Of a stretch of DNA of 64,000 nt, positions 2,841-42,269 are shown piece by piece. Position 1 is the stretch's first letter. The number at the start of each line of letters is the position of its first letter. Location: NCBI RefSeq assembly GCF_029258205.1, contig NZ_JARHZJ010000088.1:24027-88026 (forward strand), in the 5' to 3' direction. Source of the stretch: Clostridium sp. (lineage in GTDB: Bacteria; Bacillota; Clostridia; Clostridiales; Clostridiaceae). Both the position numbers and the translations under genes were made by a program. Under the pieces are notes generated by a model. It was given only the letters and a program-made list of their open reading frames with translations. It did not search any database and was not told the origin of the DNA.

Positions 2841-3848
2841 GTGTATATAATTTTTGCTTTATTAGCATTTAGTGCTTTAATCTTAGTTCATGAGCTTGGA
2901 CATTTTATTGTAGCTAAATTAAATGGAATTTATGTTGAGGAATTTGCTATTGGTATGGGACCAAAGCTTTTTGGTGTAAAAGTTGGAGAAACAGAATATA
3001 ATTTAAGAATTCTTCCTTTTGGTGGATTCGTTAAAATGCTTGGTGAAGATGATGAAAGTGATGATTCAAGAAGCTTAAATGCAAAAACTCCTATTCAGAG
3101 AATACTTGTTATGGGAGCAGGTGCATTTATGAATTATGTATTAGCCCTTATAATATTTATTGGGCTAGCTATGAGCTCTGGCTTTGTAGAAAATAAAGTA
3201 GCAAGTGTAGTACCTAATTCACCAGCACAAGAAATAGGAATTGAAAAGGGAGATGAATTCCTAAAAATAGATGGAAATAAAATTCATACAACTAATGATT
3301 TTGTAATGGGATTAGCCTTAGCTAAGGGGAATCCAGTTGAATTAGAAATAAAAAGAGGCAATGATGTCTTAACAAAAACAGTAAAGCCGATTTTAAATGA
3401 GAGTGGAATTTATCAAGTTGGAATAGGATATGATTTTATTAAAAAGCCTACTTTGCTTCAAGGAATAAAACAAGGATTTAATGAAACAAGAAGTCTTGTA
3501 TCTCAGTCTTTTATTGCATTAAAAACTATTTTTACAGGAGAAGCAAATTTAAAAACTGATGTAGGAGGTCCTGTTACAATAATTAAAATGTCAGGGCAAG
3601 CAGCAAAGGCAGGAGCAAATACTCTTTTATGGTTTATGGCATTTTTAAGTGTTCAATTAGCAGTATTTAACCTTTTACCATTCCCAGCTTTAGATGGTGG
3701 AAGAATATTTATAGAGCTTATTCAAATGATAACTAGAAAAGAAATACCTGCCAAGTATATTGAAGCTGTAAATACCGTTGGATTCATGTTGCTTATGGGA
3801 CTTATGGTATTAGTTACTATAAAAGATATAATATTCCCGATACTATAG
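2841..3848 (+). CDS. rseP: RIP metalloprotease RseP (site-2 protease)
   Basis: Intramembrane zinc protease that cleaves membrane-embedded anti-sigma factors and leftover signal peptides. The zinc motif HELGH lies near residue 18 in the first membrane segment, a PDZ domain occupies roughly residues 110-190, and the second active-site motif [12 protein letters not shown] is in the C-terminal membrane region. Length 335 aa is normal. The start is GTG 2841 with AGGAGGG upstream. This intact copy is a useful contrast to the degenerate S2P-like protein at 36.5 kb, in which HExxH is lost. Confidence 0.96.
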
Positions 3849-34861: not shown

Positions 34862-34922
34862 ATAAACAAATGAAAATCAAGTTTGATTATTATAGCTGTA
34901 TTATTCTAAAGGAGTGATTATT

Positions 34923-36302
34923 TTGAAGAAAACCTATATATTAGATACCAATGTATTGCTATATTCACCAGGAGCTATATATTCATTTTCAAATAATAAT
35001 ATTATTATTCCAGAGGTGGTTCTAGAGGAATTAGACAATATTAAAAAAATGAATAATGATTTAGGAGCAAATGCTAGAAATGTCGCAAGAGAATTAGATA
35101 AGCTTAGATTGAGTGGCTCATTAAGTGAAGGAGTTGATTTACCTAAAGGCGGAAAGCTTAAGGTTGTTACTAACTTTTATAATACTGAAATACCAGAATC
35201 ATGGAATATAAGCAAGCCTGATAATAGAATAATACAAATTTGCAAAGCATTAAAGGAAAAGGGTGAAGATGTTTGTTTAATAACTAAGGATATATTTGAA
35301 AGAATAAAGGCTGATACTGTTGGAATAAAATCAGAGGATTTTTATGAGGTTGTAGTTCCAGAATTTGAAGAACAATATAGTGGAAGAATGGAAGTTTACA
35401 CAAGTTCTGAATGCTTAAGCAAATTCTTTAAAAATAAATTTATGGAGAAAAAAGATTTAACATTCTATGATGAAGAAAATAAATGCTATGTGGAACCGAA
35501 ATTAGAGATTAATCAATTTTTAATAATACACTGTAATGATAATGATAAACAAACTGCATTGGGAAGATTTAATGGAAAAGTTATAAGGCCTTTACTTTAT
35601 AAAGATAGCAATAATATTATGGGAATAAGCCCTAGAAATGTTGGACAAAAATTTATGCTAGAATGCTTGAGTATTGATGCCAAAAAGGCACCTTTAGTAA
35701 TTATAAAAGGACCAGCAGGGACAGCAAAAACTTTATTTTCATTAGCTGTGGGATTACAAAAAATATTAGAAGAGGAAAGTGGCCAATATAGAAGAATTCT
35801 AGTTTGTAGACCAAATGTAACAATGGATGAAGAAATAGGTTATTTACCAGGAAGTGAGCAAGAAAAAATAGCTCCGTTTATGAGACCTATATATGATAAT
35901 CTAGAAATTTTAATAGATTCAGATGAGAATGAAAGATATTCAAATGAGAGAGAGTTAAATGATAAAATAGAGGAACTTTTTGAAAGAAAGATAATAACAA
36001 CAGAGGCTGTGGCATATTTAAGAGGAAGAAGTATAATAAAGAATTGGATTATAATAGATGAAGCTCAAAATCTAACACCTAAGCAGGTTAAAGCTATTAT
36101 AACAAGGGCTGGAGAAGGATCAAAAATAATATTAGTTGGAGATCCAGAGCAAATAGATCAAGCTTTCTTAGACTCAAGAAGCAATGGACTTTGTTATGCT
36201 TCAGAAAAGATGAAAGGAAGTCCTCTTTGTTATCAAGTTACATTAAAATATGACGAATGTGAAAGAAGTGAATTGGCTTATGAAGCTGCAAAAAGATTAT
36301 GA
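34923..36302 (+). CDS. phoH: PIN-PhoH fusion ATPase (YlaK/PhoH2 type)
   Basis: An N-terminal PIN nuclease domain (TYILDTNVLLYSPGA; conserved acidic residues through about residue 130) is fused to a C-terminal PhoH P-loop ATPase with Walker A GPAGTAKTLFS (about 260), GYLPGSEQEK and Walker B IIDEAQNLTP. PhoH2 proteins are reported to act as RNA helicases with RNase activity. I chose TTG 34923 over GTG 34914, which overlaps the GGAGTG site, giving 459 aa. Single-gene unit. Confidence 0.9.
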   Translation: MKKTYILDTNVLLYSPGAIYSFSNNNIIIPEVVLEELDNIKKMNNDLGANARNVARELDKLRLSGSLSEGVDLPKGGKLKVVTNFYNTEIPESWNISKPDNRIIQICKALKEKGEDVCLITKDIFERIKADTVGIKSEDFYEVVVPEFEEQYSGRMEVYTSSECLSKFFKNKFMEKKDLTFYDEENKCYVEPKLEINQFLIIHCNDNDKQTALGRFNGKVIRPLLYKDSNNIMGISPRNVGQKFMLECLSIDAKKAPLVIIKGPAGTAKTLFSLAVGLQKILEEESGQYRRILVCRPNVTMDEEIGYLPGSEQEKIAPFMRPIYDNLEILIDSDENERYSNERELNDKIEELFERKIITTEAVAYLRGRSIIKNWIIIDEAQNLTPKQVKAIITRAGEGSKIILVGDPEQIDQAFLDSRSNGLCYASEKMKGSPLCYQVTLKYDECERSELAYEAAKRL

Positions 36303-36319: not shown

Positions 36320-36366
36320 AGAGGTTTATTACTCCTAAATAGGGAGGAAAAAACCTCTATTTTTAT
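36320..36366 (+). terminator. Nested terminator after phoH
   Basis: AGAGGTTT / AAACCTCT enclosing a second CTCCT / GGGAG hairpin, followed by ATTTTTAT. Confidence 0.75.
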
Positions 36367-36484
36367 ATGTTTATAAAAATAGGTTAAGTAAAATGTTAAA
36401 ATTAATAAATTATTAAGTTTACTACATAATAAATTCAAGAAATTTATGATATAATTTAAAATACAAAATAAGGAGGTCTTAATT

Positions 36485-37105
36485 ATGCAATTTTTATTAA
36501 AAGCGTTTCTTAGTATTCCAGCAATATTAATAGCTTTTTCAGTTAAAGAATACACTCGTGCCAAAATGGCAGATAAATTAGGTGATAAATCACCAAGGTT
36601 TAAAGGAGAATTAACCTTAGATCCATTAAAGCATGTTGATATAGGTGGTGCAATAATGATGGCTTTTTTTGGATTTGGTTGGAGTAAATCTGTAGAGATA
36701 AATAAATATGCATTTAAAAATCCAAAGAAGGATGCCCTTAAAGTTAACATAGCTGCATGGCTTTCAAACTTAGTTGTTGCTATAATTGGGGTAATACTTA
36801 CAAGTTTATATTTGAGGTTTTTTGGTTTAAGAGGAGATTTTTCTCAAATTATATTTTTAATATTACAATATATAATAATTTTAAATGTAAATTTCTTTGT
36901 ATTTAATATATTACCACTTCCAGGACTTGATTGTTTTAGAATTTTAGAGGACCTTAAACCTCAATTATTCTATAAGTTATCTGAAATAGTATATCAATAT
37001 TATTATTTTATACTTATAGGTATAATACTTCTTGGAAGATATGTATTAGCTATACCATCTCAATTGGTTATGACTTTTGTATATTCTATAGGTTTATTTA
37101 TTTAA
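36485..37105 (+). CDS. Site-2-protease-like membrane protein lacking HExxH
   Basis: A 206-aa protein of the short M50B (FtsH-neighbour/YwhC-like) family: LTLDPLKHVDIGGAIMMAFFGFGW, INKYAFKNPKKDALKV and NILPLPGLDCFRIL match conserved segments, with about five membrane helices. The zinc motif should be HEFAH at residues 20-24, but reads KEYTR. Both His ligands and the orientation are replaced while the Glu position and downstream Asp remain. It is therefore predicted to be inactive as a protease but under selection as a folded protein. AAGGAGG precedes ATG. Confidence 0.8.
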   Translation: MQFLLKAFLSIPAILIAFSVKEYTRAKMADKLGDKSPRFKGELTLDPLKHVDIGGAIMMAFFGFGWSKSVEINKYAFKNPKKDALKVNIAAWLSNLVVAIIGVILTSLYLRFFGLRGDFSQIIFLILQYIIILNVNFFVFNILPLPGLDCFRILEDLKPQLFYKLSEIVYQYYYFILIGIILLGRYVLAIPSQLVMTFVYSIGLFI

Positions 37106-37269: not shown

Positions 37270-38484
37270 ATGATAAAAATGTCTAAAAAAATAAAAATAA
37301 TTTTAGCTTCTCTACTAATTGTTTTTTCTGTTTTGGTAATAAATAGTATTACAGCAAATAATATTGTAACAACAAAGGGGGCTAGCATTGAGGAAAAAGA
37401 AGTAATTAAGGAGAATGATAAAAAGGGATTTTTTGATATGTTTAGCTTAGGAAAAAAGATTAATATAAGTGCTGTAGGAGACATAATGTTACATGATGAG
37501 CAAATATGGTCTGCATATAATAAAGAAAATAAGACTTATGATTTTATGAATAATTTTAAGTATATAAAGCCATTTATAGAAAAAAGCCATATAGCTTATG
37601 GAACAATTGAGGGAACTTATTCTGGAGAAGAAGAGGGGTATTCTGGGTATCCTAATTATAATGGGCCAGATTCCATGATAGATGCATTAAAAGATACTGG
37701 TTTTGATATTATAAATGTAGCAACAGATCATTCTTTAGATAAAGGTCTAGAAGGAGTAAGTAAAACAGGAGAAAAAATAGATAAAGAGATGACTTCTATT
37801 GGAAATAAAAAGTATATTATTAAGAAAGTAAAGGGAGTAGAAATAGGATTTACTTCTTATACTTATGAGAGTAGGGAAGGAGAGTTAAATGGTAATAAAA
37901 TTCCTGAAGATATGAATTTAAATACATTTTCATATAATAAATTAGATAATGGATTAGAGGAAATGAAAACCTTAGTAGAAGAGATGAAGAATGATGGAGC
38001 TGAGTTTATAGTTTTTGGGATGCATTGGGGTGTAGAATATAATACTGAGCCTAGTAAATATCAGATGAAAATAGCAGAAGCCTTAAATGAATATGGAGTT
38101 GACTTAATATTAGGAAGCAATCCTCATGTTATACAACCTATAAAAGAAATTCAAGGAGAATATGGACATAAAACTTTAGTAGCTTATTCTTTAGGTAATT
38201 TTATATCTAATCAAAGGTTGGAAACTATGGGAGATAGAAGAACAGCTGATGGTATTATACTTAATTTAACTTTGAATAAGAGTAGAAAAGGGGTAAAAGT
38301 AGAGGAATGGAGTTATACTCCAACTTGGGTATATAAGATTCAAAGAGAAAATAAAAAATCAGATTATTATATATTACCAGTTGAAGAAACTTTAAAGAGT
38401 GAAGAAGGTAAAAAGTTAGATAAGCAAATTTTAAATGAGTTAAATAAATCTTTAGAATCAACTAAATCTATAGTAGAAAAATAA
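37270..38484 (+). CDS. CapA-family protein
   Basis: A membrane-anchored or secreted protein of 404 aa. Residues 5-28 form a signal anchor. The CapA (poly-gamma-glutamate synthesis-like, metallophosphatase-fold) domain starts ISAVGDIMLHDEQIW (about residue 74), followed by DIINVATDHSLDKG, FGMHWGVEYNTEPS and ILGSNPHVIQPIKE, which carry the metal-binding Asp/His residues of the fold. No capB/capC-like gene is nearby, so a role in poly-glutamate export cannot be assumed; an envelope hydrolase is possible. Confidence 0.82.
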   Translation: MIKMSKKIKIILASLLIVFSVLVINSITANNIVTTKGASIEEKEVIKENDKKGFFDMFSLGKKINISAVGDIMLHDEQIWSAYNKENKTYDFMNNFKYIKPFIEKSHIAYGTIEGTYSGEEEGYSGYPNYNGPDSMIDALKDTGFDIINVATDHSLDKGLEGVSKTGEKIDKEMTSIGNKKYIIKKVKGVEIGFTSYTYESREGELNGNKIPEDMNLNTFSYNKLDNGLEEMKTLVEEMKNDGAEFIVFGMHWGVEYNTEPSKYQMKIAEALNEYGVDLILGSNPHVIQPIKEIQGEYGHKTLVAYSLGNFISNQRLETMGDRRTADGIILNLTLNKSRKGVKVEEWSYTPTWVYKIQRENKKSDYYILPVEETLKSEEGKKLDKQILNELNKSLESTKSIVEK

Positions 38485-38582: not shown

Positions 38583-40091
38583 TTAGGCTTTTTCAATAAT
38601 TAACTCTTTATTATACACTTCTTCAAAGGCTTTAGAACTTCTTCTAGCTTGACGAAGCTCTAATTCTAAATCATATTCAGAATAAAGTTTTAAATGTACT
38701 GTATCTTCTTTAAGTATTATATCAACATTTTCTACATGGCCAGTTAAACCTCTGTCTAAGCCTTCAGCAAGCTTAAGAATCACTCCTAAATACTCAACAT
38801 GTCTTACATCTAATCTATTAATTATAGTTGAATATTTGGCAATTGGTGCTTGGAAAGAGTTATTTCTATGGTAAGCAGCACATAGTGCACTTAATAATAT
38901 TTCTTTATGAGTTAATCCACTTATATGAGAATTTAAAATGACATAAAATGAATGTACGTGATGATCATAATATCTTATACTTATACCACAATCATGAAGC
39001 AAGGAGGCTGTTTTTAATATATTTTTAAATTCATCTCCTAAATGATGAAGTGGTTTTAAACCTTCAAATAGTGAAAAAGCAAGTCTACACACATTTTTAG
39101 CATGAGGAATATTTATGTTTAAAGTATCCATAATTCCTTTTAAACTTGTATCTAAAATATCATCACAAGTATGGAATTTATCTGTTATATATTCATATAT
39201 AAGTCCTTCTCTAAGACCACGACCACATATTATTACTTCTTTAGTATTTGTAAAACTTAGAATTTCTTTTATTAAATCTGTAGAAGCAACTATGACATCA
39301 GCTCTAGCGGGTGAAAGTCCTTCAATTTTTTTTCTTTGACGAAAATTTTTACTTTTTAGGAGATGAAACATCTCATCAATATCATAGTCATAAAGAACAT
39401 AATTATGAACTATATCAATAGGATATCTCTTTCTACGTCTATCAATTTTTCCTAAGTTTCTGAAAGAACCTCCAACACCTATAACAGATTTAAATGTATT
39501 ATCCTTAAGCCAATCTATTTCTTCTAGCTGTTTTTTTATATACTTAACGCAATTTGTATTATTTTCATATCCAATCATATCATTTAATTGGAATAAGGAT
39601 GTTAAAGTTACATAACCAAAAGGAAAAGTAACTTCCTTATAAATTTCGTTGTTTTTTAACCAACATAAGTGAGTATTATTTCCGTTTATATCTAAAAGAA
39701 GAGAATTATCCATATAAAGAGAATTTTTAGCTCCTAAAAAATTATAATGAATTTCTTCTTCATTAGATAATATTCTAAGGTCTAATCCAAGTTCTTTTTT
39801 GATTATCTCCTTAAGATTAATTTTTTCATCTACACTTTTAATACTTTCAGAACCTATTAGTATAATTTTTGATGCACCACAAGATATGCACATAGATTTA
39901 AAAGCTTTTATAGATGATATTGTAAGTTTAATTTTATCTTCGTCCAAAACAGAACAAGCGAAGAAATCAGAGCCAAGTCTTATATGCTCTTTTAATTCAT
40001 CAATTATTTTAAAATATCCATATTTCTCAACTTCAGCAAGTGTTAATCTTACAGAGTTAGAACCGATATCTATTACTCCTATTCTATCCAT
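38583..40091 (-). CDS. Ppx/GppA exopolyphosphatase-family protein with HD domain
   Basis: A 502-aa ASKHA-fold phosphatase. N-terminal GVIDIGSNSVRLTLAEV and LDINGNNTHLCWL are ATP/phosphate-binding motifs; GVGGSFRNLGKIDRR follows. The C-terminal HD-type domain has SLLHDCGISIRYYDHHVHS. Family members hydrolyse polyphosphate or pppGpp, linking it to stringent or phosphate stress. In the second phosphate loop, DINGNNT replaces the usual DIGGGS, so catalytic efficiency is uncertain. Divergent from the argS T-box unit. Confidence 0.87.
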   Translation of the reverse strand: MDRIGVIDIGSNSVRLTLAEVEKYGYFKIIDELKEHIRLGSDFFACSVLDEDKIKLTISSIKAFKSMCISCGASKIILIGSESIKSVDEKINLKEIIKKELGLDLRILSNEEEIHYNFLGAKNSLYMDNSLLLDINGNNTHLCWLKNNEIYKEVTFPFGYVTLTSLFQLNDMIGYENNTNCVKYIKKQLEEIDWLKDNTFKSVIGVGGSFRNLGKIDRRRKRYPIDIVHNYVLYDYDIDEMFHLLKSKNFRQRKKIEGLSPARADVIVASTDLIKEILSFTNTKEVIICGRGLREGLIYEYITDKFHTCDDILDTSLKGIMDTLNINIPHAKNVCRLAFSLFEGLKPLHHLGDEFKNILKTASLLHDCGISIRYYDHHVHSFYVILNSHISGLTHKEILLSALCAAYHRNNSFQAPIAKYSTIINRLDVRHVEYLGVILKLAEGLDRGLTGHVENVDIILKEDTVHLKLYSEYDLELELRQARRSSKAFEEVYNKELIIEKA

Positions 40092-40571: not shown

Positions 40572-42269
40572 ATGGATTACAAAAAGTTAGTTGCAGAAAG
40601 AATTAAAGAACATGTTGATCTAGAATTAGAAAACATAGAAAAACTTATAGAAATACCACCTAAGCCAGAGATGGGAGACTTTGCATTCCCTTGCTTTCAG
40701 TTAGCAAAGGTTATGAGAAAAGCTCCTAATATGATAGCAGCTGAATTAGCTGAGAAAATAAATAAAGAGGGATTTGAAAGAGTAGAGTGTTTAGGACCTT
40801 ACTTAAACTTCTTTGTTGATAAAGTAGTTTTCTCAAAAAATATAATAACCAAAGTTTTAGAAGAAGGAGATAAATATGGTTCTTCTAAAATAGGAGAGGG
40901 AAAAAATGTTGTAGTTGAATATTCATCACCTAACATAGCTAAGCCTTTCCACGTTGGACATTTATTCACAACAGCTATAGGACATTCATTATATAGAATG
41001 TTAAATTTTGAAGGATATAATCCAATAAGAATAAATCACTTAGGAGACTGGGGAACTCAGTTTGGTAAATTAATCTCAGCTTATAAAAGATGGGGAAATG
41101 AAGAAGCTTTAGAAGAGGAGCCAATAAATGAACTTTTAAGAATATATGTTAAATTCCATGATGAAGCTGAAAATAATCCAGAACTTGAAGATGAAGGAAG
41201 AATGTACTTTAAGAAGCTTGAAGATGGAGATCAAGAAGCGGTAGCCCTATGGGAAAGATTTAAAGACTTATCTTTAAAAGAGTTTAATAAGATATACGAT
41301 ATGCTAGGTGTAGATTTCGATTCTTGGGCTGGAGAAAGCTTCTACAATGATAAAATGGATACAGTAGTAGAAGAACTAGAAAAGGCTAATATATTAACTG
41401 AGAGTAATGGTGCTAAGGTTGTAATGTTAGATGAGTATAATATGCCACCTTGTATAGTTGTTAAATCAGATGGAGCATCAATATATGCCACAAGAGACTT
41501 AGCAGCAGCTAGTTATAGACATAAAACATATAACTTTGATAAATGTATATATGTAGTTGGTAAAGATCAAATATTACACTTTAACCAAGTGTTCAAAACA
41601 TTAGAATTAGCAGGTAATGAATGGGCTAAAAACTGTGTACACATTCCATTTGGATTAGTTAAATTTGCAGATAGAAAACTTTCAACAAGAAAAGGTAATG
41701 TAGTTTTACTTGAAGACTTATTAAACGAAGCTATAGATAAAACTAGAGAAACTATAGAAGAAAAAAACCCTTCATTAGAAAATAAAGAAGAGGTAGCTAA
41801 GAAAATAGGTATAGGAGCTATATTATTTACTTACTTAAAGAACTCAAGAGAAAGAGATATAGTCTTTGATTGGAAAGAGATGTTAAGTTTTGAAGGTGAA
41901 ACTGGTCCATATGTTCAATACTCATATGCAAGAGCTAAGAGTATATTAAGAAAAGCTAAGGAACAAAATATAACAGCTGAGCCAGATTTTACGAAGTTAA
42001 CTTCAAAAGAAGAATTTGAATTAGCTAAAACTTTAGATGGATTACAAAAGGCTGTAATTTTAGGAATAGATAAGTTAGAACCGTCAGTTGTAACTAGATA
42101 TTCAATAGAAGTAGCTAAGGCTTTCAATAAGTTCTATAATAATCATACAGTTTTAAATGTAGAAGATGAAGGATTAAAAGCGGCAAGACTTGAGCTTATA
42201 AAAGCTACTGCTCAAGTTATCAAAAATGCTTTATTCTTAATAGGAATAGATGTAGTTGAAAAAATGTAA
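40572..42269 (+). CDS. argS: Arginyl-tRNA synthetase
   Basis: Class I aminoacyl-tRNA synthetase, 565 aa. N-terminal Arg-tRNA-synthetase D-loop recognition domain (1-85), HIGH-like PFHVGH (about 128), the KMSKS region in its degenerate form KLSTRKGN (about 377), and a C-terminal DALR anticodon-binding domain. ArgRS enzymes commonly lack a canonical KMSKS lysine. AAGGAGG before ATG. Controlled by the T-box upstream. Confidence 0.98.

Follow-up and report, generated by a model that had tools for sequence, protein, structure and literature searches.

Site-2 proteases (S2Ps) are viewed as cutting enzymes for which the zinc site is essential. The sole S2P pseudoprotease found in the literature searched is EGY3 of Arabidopsis chloroplasts, which lacks the HExxH motif, is regarded as non-proteolytic and contributes to the stability of other proteins (PMC10978774). 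Among rhomboids, the iRhoms are pseudoproteases proposed to act on former rhomboid substrates (PMC3149277), and the membrane proteins SpoIVFA and BofA restrain SpoIVFB without cutting (PMC6242693). No bacterial S2P pseudoprotease was found in the same literature, and dead members are unmentioned in those passages of a review of bacterial S2Ps (PMC10202637) that matched a few search terms. A function for short S2Ps likewise did not surface in the literature searched. Against that literature, the protein described here would be new as a bacterial S2P pseudoprotease that replaces its active orthologue; S2P pseudoproteases as such are already known from EGY3.

The gene lies in a 64,000-nucleotide stretch of Clostridium sp. 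DNA, henceforth referred to as the window, and was read as an intact open reading frame with an ATG start. The features of the locus are collected in Table 1. The open frame and strong ribosome site, which the initial annotation had cited in favour of function, were both verified, with an intact frame for 206 residues and AAGGAGGT 7 nt before the ATG. The Pfam Peptidase_M50 model (PF02163) matches the C-terminal half of the protein with an E-value of 1.4e-5 and 25.0 bits, below the gathering score of 27.2, which is passed by the sister proteins of genomes G002, G005 and G006. An NCBIfam search of the window protein returned no match. A promoter scan around the gene gave scores no better than shuffled sequence. 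The hairpin between the PhoH gene and the S2P-like gene is consistent with a separate transcription unit. An operon with PhoH or CapA is unlikely because of this upstream terminator-like hairpin and because the median gap upstream of the orthologues is 128–156 nt.

Table 1 Features of the S2P-like locus in the window.
Feature	Position	Strand	Basis or remark
RseP-type S2P (HELGH), same genome, different S2P subgroup	2841..3848	+	M50 search
PIN/PhoH-like ATPase, upstream neighbour	34914..36302	+	Upstream neighbour in 5 of the 6 other genus members
Terminator-like hairpin between PhoH gene and S2P-like gene	36343..36358	+	Region scan
Candidate extended -10 box TGaTATAAT, without a good -35	36447..36455	+	Direct reading
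Shine-Dalgarno AAGGAGGT, 7 nt upstream of ATG	36470..36477	+	Direct reading
Short S2P-like pseudoprotease CDS, 206 aa	36485..37105	+	Intact frame, orthologues, S2P-like model with pLDDT 94
KEYTR (residues 21-25) at HExxH position	36545..36559	+	Alignment; [KR]EYxR in 7/7 genus members
Conserved loop LGDKSPRFKGELTLDPLKHVD (residues 32-52), kept from active orthologues	36578..36640	+	G33, D34, G41, P47 and H50 common to active and inactive forms
S67 (WAK to WSK)	36683..36685	+	Ala/Gly in 68/68 active; Ser/Thr in 31/31 of the two main inactive clades
A91 (AGP to AAW)	36755..36757	+	Gly in 68/68 active; Ala in 7/7 of the genus and 58% of the QGYxK clade
D149, third zinc ligand position (LDG to LDC)	36929..36931	+	Alignment
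PGA_cap (CapA-like) protein, downstream neighbour	37270..38484	+	Similar-sized ORF in G002 and G006
Ppx/GppA phosphatase, conserved flank	38583..40091	-	Flanks active and inactive S2P
Arginyl-tRNA synthetase (ArgS), other conserved flank	40572..42269	+	Flanks active and inactive S2P

The HExxH zinc motif of peptidase family M50 is absent from the window protein. Residues K21-E22-Y23-T24-R25 align column for column with H-E-Y-A-H of the orthologues, confirming the original observation that KEYTR replaces HExxH and that both zinc histidines are gone. K21 and R25 stand at the two His ligand positions, and the catalytic Glu (E22) is kept. The alignment thus demonstrates loss of the zinc site at the level of sequence; with that site, the protein has presumably lost the ability to bind zinc and to hydrolyse peptide bonds. 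The flanking motifs noted initially are real and present as LGD (residues 32-34), LDPLKH (45-50) and PLPGLD (144-149). In the window protein the last of these reads PLPGLDC, with Cys for the Gly that follows the ligand Asp, and other members of the genus have LDG, LDC or LEM.

KEYTR was also found in an independent metagenome-assembled genome (MAG) of a sister species, whose protein is 69–70% identical, and the seven species of the window genus carry KEYTR (two), KEYIR (two), KEYAR, REYIR and REYSR. Because the motif recurs in an independent sister MAG and [KR]EYxR holds in 7/7 species, KEYTR is neither a chance occurrence nor a sequencing error, and the genus-wide pattern likewise rules out a recent loss. 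An acid (Asp/Glu) is retained at residue 149 in all seven. Neither of the refuting conditions set out in the initial annotation held: close relatives do not carry HExxH, 7/7 of the genus lacking it, and selection is not relaxed to neutrality.

Of 208 Clostridiaceae genomes, 181 gave an orthologue match, almost always in single copy; the gene is missing from the remaining 27, including 15 of the 174 genomes of best quality. Besides the window protein, 100 orthologues from the family were read for their motif. Sixty-eight have HE[YF]AH together with LDG, all from other genera than that of the window, and most of these other genera retain HExxH. The window protein is 40–50% identical to the HExxH orthologues. 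A second inactive group comprises 24 genomes of genus g3 (L044-L098; Clostridium clade) with QGY[AGS][KR] and with LDG changed to L[AV]G or LAC, so that this clade is without all three zinc ligands (residue 149 being Ala/Val) and without the catalytic Glu. Single cases of HSYAK (one further g3 genome) and HSFTQ (one g36 genome) were also observed.

In a class-wide sample of 89 loci, including a few from Clostridiaceae, HExxH was present at 86, including one misaligned locus that proved to be HEVAH on direct inspection. The three exceptions read RGYAQ (L309), HEYFK (L341) and REYSR (L342), of which L341 and L342 overlap scpA. Across the seven inactive kinds, the second His is replaced by Lys/Arg in five and by Gln in two. 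The inactive short S2Ps of two genomes of family f9 (L347:2166-2918, minus strand; L348:4025-4840, minus strand) are HEYFK without the Asp and REYSR with the Asp. Both overlap the start of scpA; ScpA and ScpB were identified by eye. The f9 REYSR is the same motif as that of one window-genus member, though the lineage is unrelated.

The locus was compared between active and inactive forms. In the window genus the gene lies between PhoH and (CapA)-Ppx-ArgS, with PhoH as the upstream neighbour in five of the six other members and a long ORF in between in G004. A similar-sized ORF occupies the CapA-like position in G002 and G006 and is absent in G001, G003 and G004; since an ORF is found there only in some genus members, the CapA-like gene seems to have been inserted between S2P and Ppx. 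In g3, the active HExxH, QGYxK and HSYAK genes all lie between an LCP-family gene and Ppx-ArgS, and for the QGYxK genes the LCP-family gene was always upstream where that flank was available. Most other genera have an NAGPA gene and a beta-propeller gene upstream and, downstream, a gene that from reading its sequence is presumably TrmB-like. The Ppx-ArgS flank shared by active and inactive versions identifies this as the same locus, and the pseudo form therefore replaced the active one in place. The ArgS beside the pseudo S2P in L059, L063, L068, L070, L071, L073, L083 and L095 is of a different type with a very long or odd branch, which suggests either replacement or a truncated reading.

The PF02163 search found only RseP and SpoIVFB as other M50 proteins in the window genome and in the fully listed genomes of the genus, the result for G003 and G004 being less certain; both proteins belong to other S2P subgroups than the short S2P. 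A hidden active short-S2P paralogue was thereby ruled out for the window genome and the fully listed genus genomes. These data bear on the proposal, made in the initial annotation by analogy with rhomboid pseudoproteases, that the protein serves as a regulator of the genuine S2P in its host cell. An inhibitor or adaptor that binds RseP or SpoIVFB would find its targets in the genus, where both are present; in B. subtilis the membrane partners of SpoIVFB, SpoIVFA and BofA, keep it inactive (PMC6242693), and iRhoms illustrate that pseudoproteases can turn into regulators (PMC3149277). However, the pseudoprotease stands in for an active single-copy S2P as its orthologue and is not an extra paralogue; neither rseP nor spoIVFB adjoins its locus in the window genome, and other genera have active versions alongside RseP and SpoIVFB. 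Since no second short M50 protein occurs in the fully listed genus genomes, replacement rather than a regulatory paralogue is indicated. The regulatory proposal is improbable and is not supported by the single-copy, in-place replacement, which leaves no active copy of the subfamily in these genomes.

Selection on the inactive gene was estimated pairwise with a codon model. Close QGYxK pairs (≥85% identity) gave omega values of 0.039–0.105, compared to 0.024–0.123 for comparable HExxH pairs. The window protein against its sister gave an omega of 0.039 with saturated dS and a likelihood ratio of 131 against omega 1. Because of this saturation, the low ratio in the window genus draws its support chiefly from the QGYxK clade and from long-term conservation. 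The frame is open in all seven species of the genus at 43–70% identity. Together these results are strong evidence that the inactive gene is maintained by purifying selection. The orthologue comparison proposed at the outset thus gave a conserved [KR]EYxR in 7/7 species with an omega of 0.039 (dS saturated), and with zinc-site loss throughout the genus under purifying selection, the original suggestion of function without proteolysis is supported. A decaying, functionless remnant is a very improbable alternative: absence from 27 of the 208 genomes indicates that the gene can be lost, and its protein evolves somewhat faster in the window genus, but the open frames in seven species, the dN/dS of ~0.04, the strong ribosome site and the invariant motif positions all speak against decay. 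Relative to four housekeeping genes, the protein rate in the window genus is ~1.4–1.6 times that of the active forms, and the QGYxK rate is close to the active one overall.

Fifty-one positions are at least 95% conserved in the active forms, and the inactive forms retain 71% of them in the window genus (mean) and 83% in the QGYxK clade. Residues kept in inactive forms include G33, D34, G41, P47, H50, G55, G65, W66, N73, D83, P144, P146 and Y172. The window genus has lost P92, N46 and T36, which active forms keep, and from these substitutions part of the protein surface appears to be changed in this genus. Besides the ligand positions, both main inactive clades show A67 to Ser/Thr, D84 to Ala/Ser and a shift of G91 toward Ala.

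Such changes raise the question of whether the old active site now serves another function, such as ligand or ion binding or a different chemistry through K21, E22 and R25, tuned by the convergent changes at 67, 84 and 91. Ser/Thr at 67, Ala/Ser at 84 and a basic residue at 25 are common to both main clades and are absent in active orthologues save for one Ser at 84, Y23 is invariant in both clades, and the convergence at 67, 84 and 91 could mean a new shared function. Against this, the HSYAK and HSFTQ forms are without the changes at 67, 84 and 91, and one common new chemistry is disfavored because the clades differ at 21, 22 and 149 (K/R-E-acid versus Q-G-Ala). A new site of this kind is accordingly given a low probability.

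Structure prediction, suggested in the initial annotation, yielded an S2P-like fold. The AlphaFold2 model of the window protein has a pLDDT of 94 and a pTM of 0.88; an active orthologue modelled as a control has a pLDDT of 95 and the same helix order. The best PDB match for both models is mjS2P (3b4r), with a probability of 0.99–1.00, although the TM-scores are modest (0.42–0.46) and the E-values lie above 0.001. A profile search of PDB sequences with the window protein recovered RseP, mjS2P and SpoIVFB. Orthology to HExxH short S2Ps, together with the predicted S2P fold, identifies the window protein as an S2P homologue.

In the active site, Zn2+ balances Glu22 and Asp149. The corresponding charges in the window genus are K/R21 and R25 (+2) versus E22 and D/E149 (-2), and the charges at the four positions likewise cancel out in the REYSR, HEYFK, HSYAK and RGYAQ forms. 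QGYxK (+1, with one basic residue and no acid at those positions) and HSFTQ (-1) are not neutral, and the charge rule does not cover all kinds. Going by residue types, the helices may be pinned by basic residues where zinc once held them.

The reading preferred here, which is given roughly even credence, is that a maintained pseudoprotease has replaced, in place, the single-copy short S2P that occurs across Clostridia and that it continues to bind the ancestral partner in the membrane but leaves it uncut, with a salt bridge in the place of zinc. Judging from the alignment and the predicted model, the membrane fold, the LGDKxPRxxG..L(N/D)PxxHxD loop and the WxKPxxxN segment are kept. The helix-bundle core formerly linked by zinc may be held by a buried salt-bridge network of K21/R25 with E22/D149, a possibility based on the types of residue present, and the net charge of this network would equal that of Zn2+ with Glu and Asp. 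The membrane partner of the active orthologue would still be recognised and then held, shielded or positioned uncut. The main argument for partner recognition being common to both forms is that the loop and the WxKP segment are widely conserved in dead and live versions. A common role is predicted since the locus and most conserved residues are shared by inactive and active versions.

The origin of the inactive forms was addressed with a species tree of PolC, PNPase, InfB and FtsK (31 genomes, 3572 columns). PNPase, InfB and FtsK were added because a common pseudo clade was left unrejected by PolC on its own (AU p 0.09), and ArgS was dropped as a species marker because several g3 genomes carry unrelated-looking, very long-branched copies. 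Two PolC types were noted in the family (G043, G045, G115, G130, G060): the best full-length match of some genomes is ~51% identical to the window PolC, and others carry both types. The four-gene tree gave 100/100 support for the KExxR genus, for the QGYxK clade and for the whole of g3 including its active members, and the HSYAK host is nested within an HExxH clade (100/100).

A different origin, in which the pseudo form arose once and was then transferred in place between two Clostridiaceae lineages, is unlikely. It would fit the quick 101-protein S2P tree, which places KExxR beside QGxxK with a branch support of 99, and the derived residues at 25, 67, 84 and 91 common to both clades; the S2P data do not reject a union of the two groups (AU p 0.36 and 0.15). 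The four-gene species tree, however, decisively separates the hosts, a common clade of all KExxR and QGYxK hosts being rejected with an AU p of 6.6e-48. Matched-taxon S2P trees recover g3 as one group, and so place each pseudo clade in its own genus, with support of 49%, or of 86% in a second run with 14 positions dropped, in which the omission of the shared positions favors that result; these trees reject neither arrangement of the two pseudo groups. The S2P tree cannot settle the origin alone because the gene is too short. The two clades further differ at residues 21, 22 and 149 and in their upstream genes (PhoH versus LCP), and HSYAK, RGYAQ, HEYFK and REYSR count as separate under either view. 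For the two main pseudo clades, independent conversions under vertical descent give the simpler account.

A broader proposal is advanced tentatively, with somewhat less than even credence: the same conserved S2P would have turned into a pseudoprotease many times independently in Clostridia (at least three times in Clostridiaceae, with further cases in other families), usually with Lys/Arg at the position of the second zinc His. What selection ancestrally maintained in the subfamily would then be the binding of a membrane partner without proteolysis, and zinc could be replaced by a salt bridge between Lys/Arg and Glu/Asp. Proteolysis is suggested to be the dispensable part of the subfamily's job because activity was lost repeatedly across lineages. 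If true, active and dead orthologues swapping at one locus would mean a non-proteolytic job for an S2P subfamily, and the same gene in the same place, with and without zinc, would be a natural experiment offering a route to short-S2P function.

Among known systems, short M50B S2Ps without a PDZ or CBS domain, for which the nearest solved fold is mjS2P (3B4R), resemble the window protein as an orthologous single-copy gene at the same locus with the same helix order and with the LGD, (N/D)PxxHxD, WxKPxxxN and PLPGLD motifs. The window protein differs from them in Lys/Arg for the zinc His residues, in the altered AGP and LDG motifs and in its sub-threshold Pfam M50 score. SpoIVFA and BofA, unlike the window protein, are not homologues of the protease they restrain. 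The iRhoms share with it an intramembrane-protease fold without catalysis but belong to the serine-protease rhomboid family, are eukaryotic and coexist with active rhomboids; the search of the window genome and the fully listed genomes of the genus found only RseP and SpoIVFB, and no active close paralogue. EGY3 is alike in being an S2P family member without HExxH. It has active S2P relatives in the same organelle, whereas the bacterial protein replaces its active orthologue, and this conversion recurs in many lineages.
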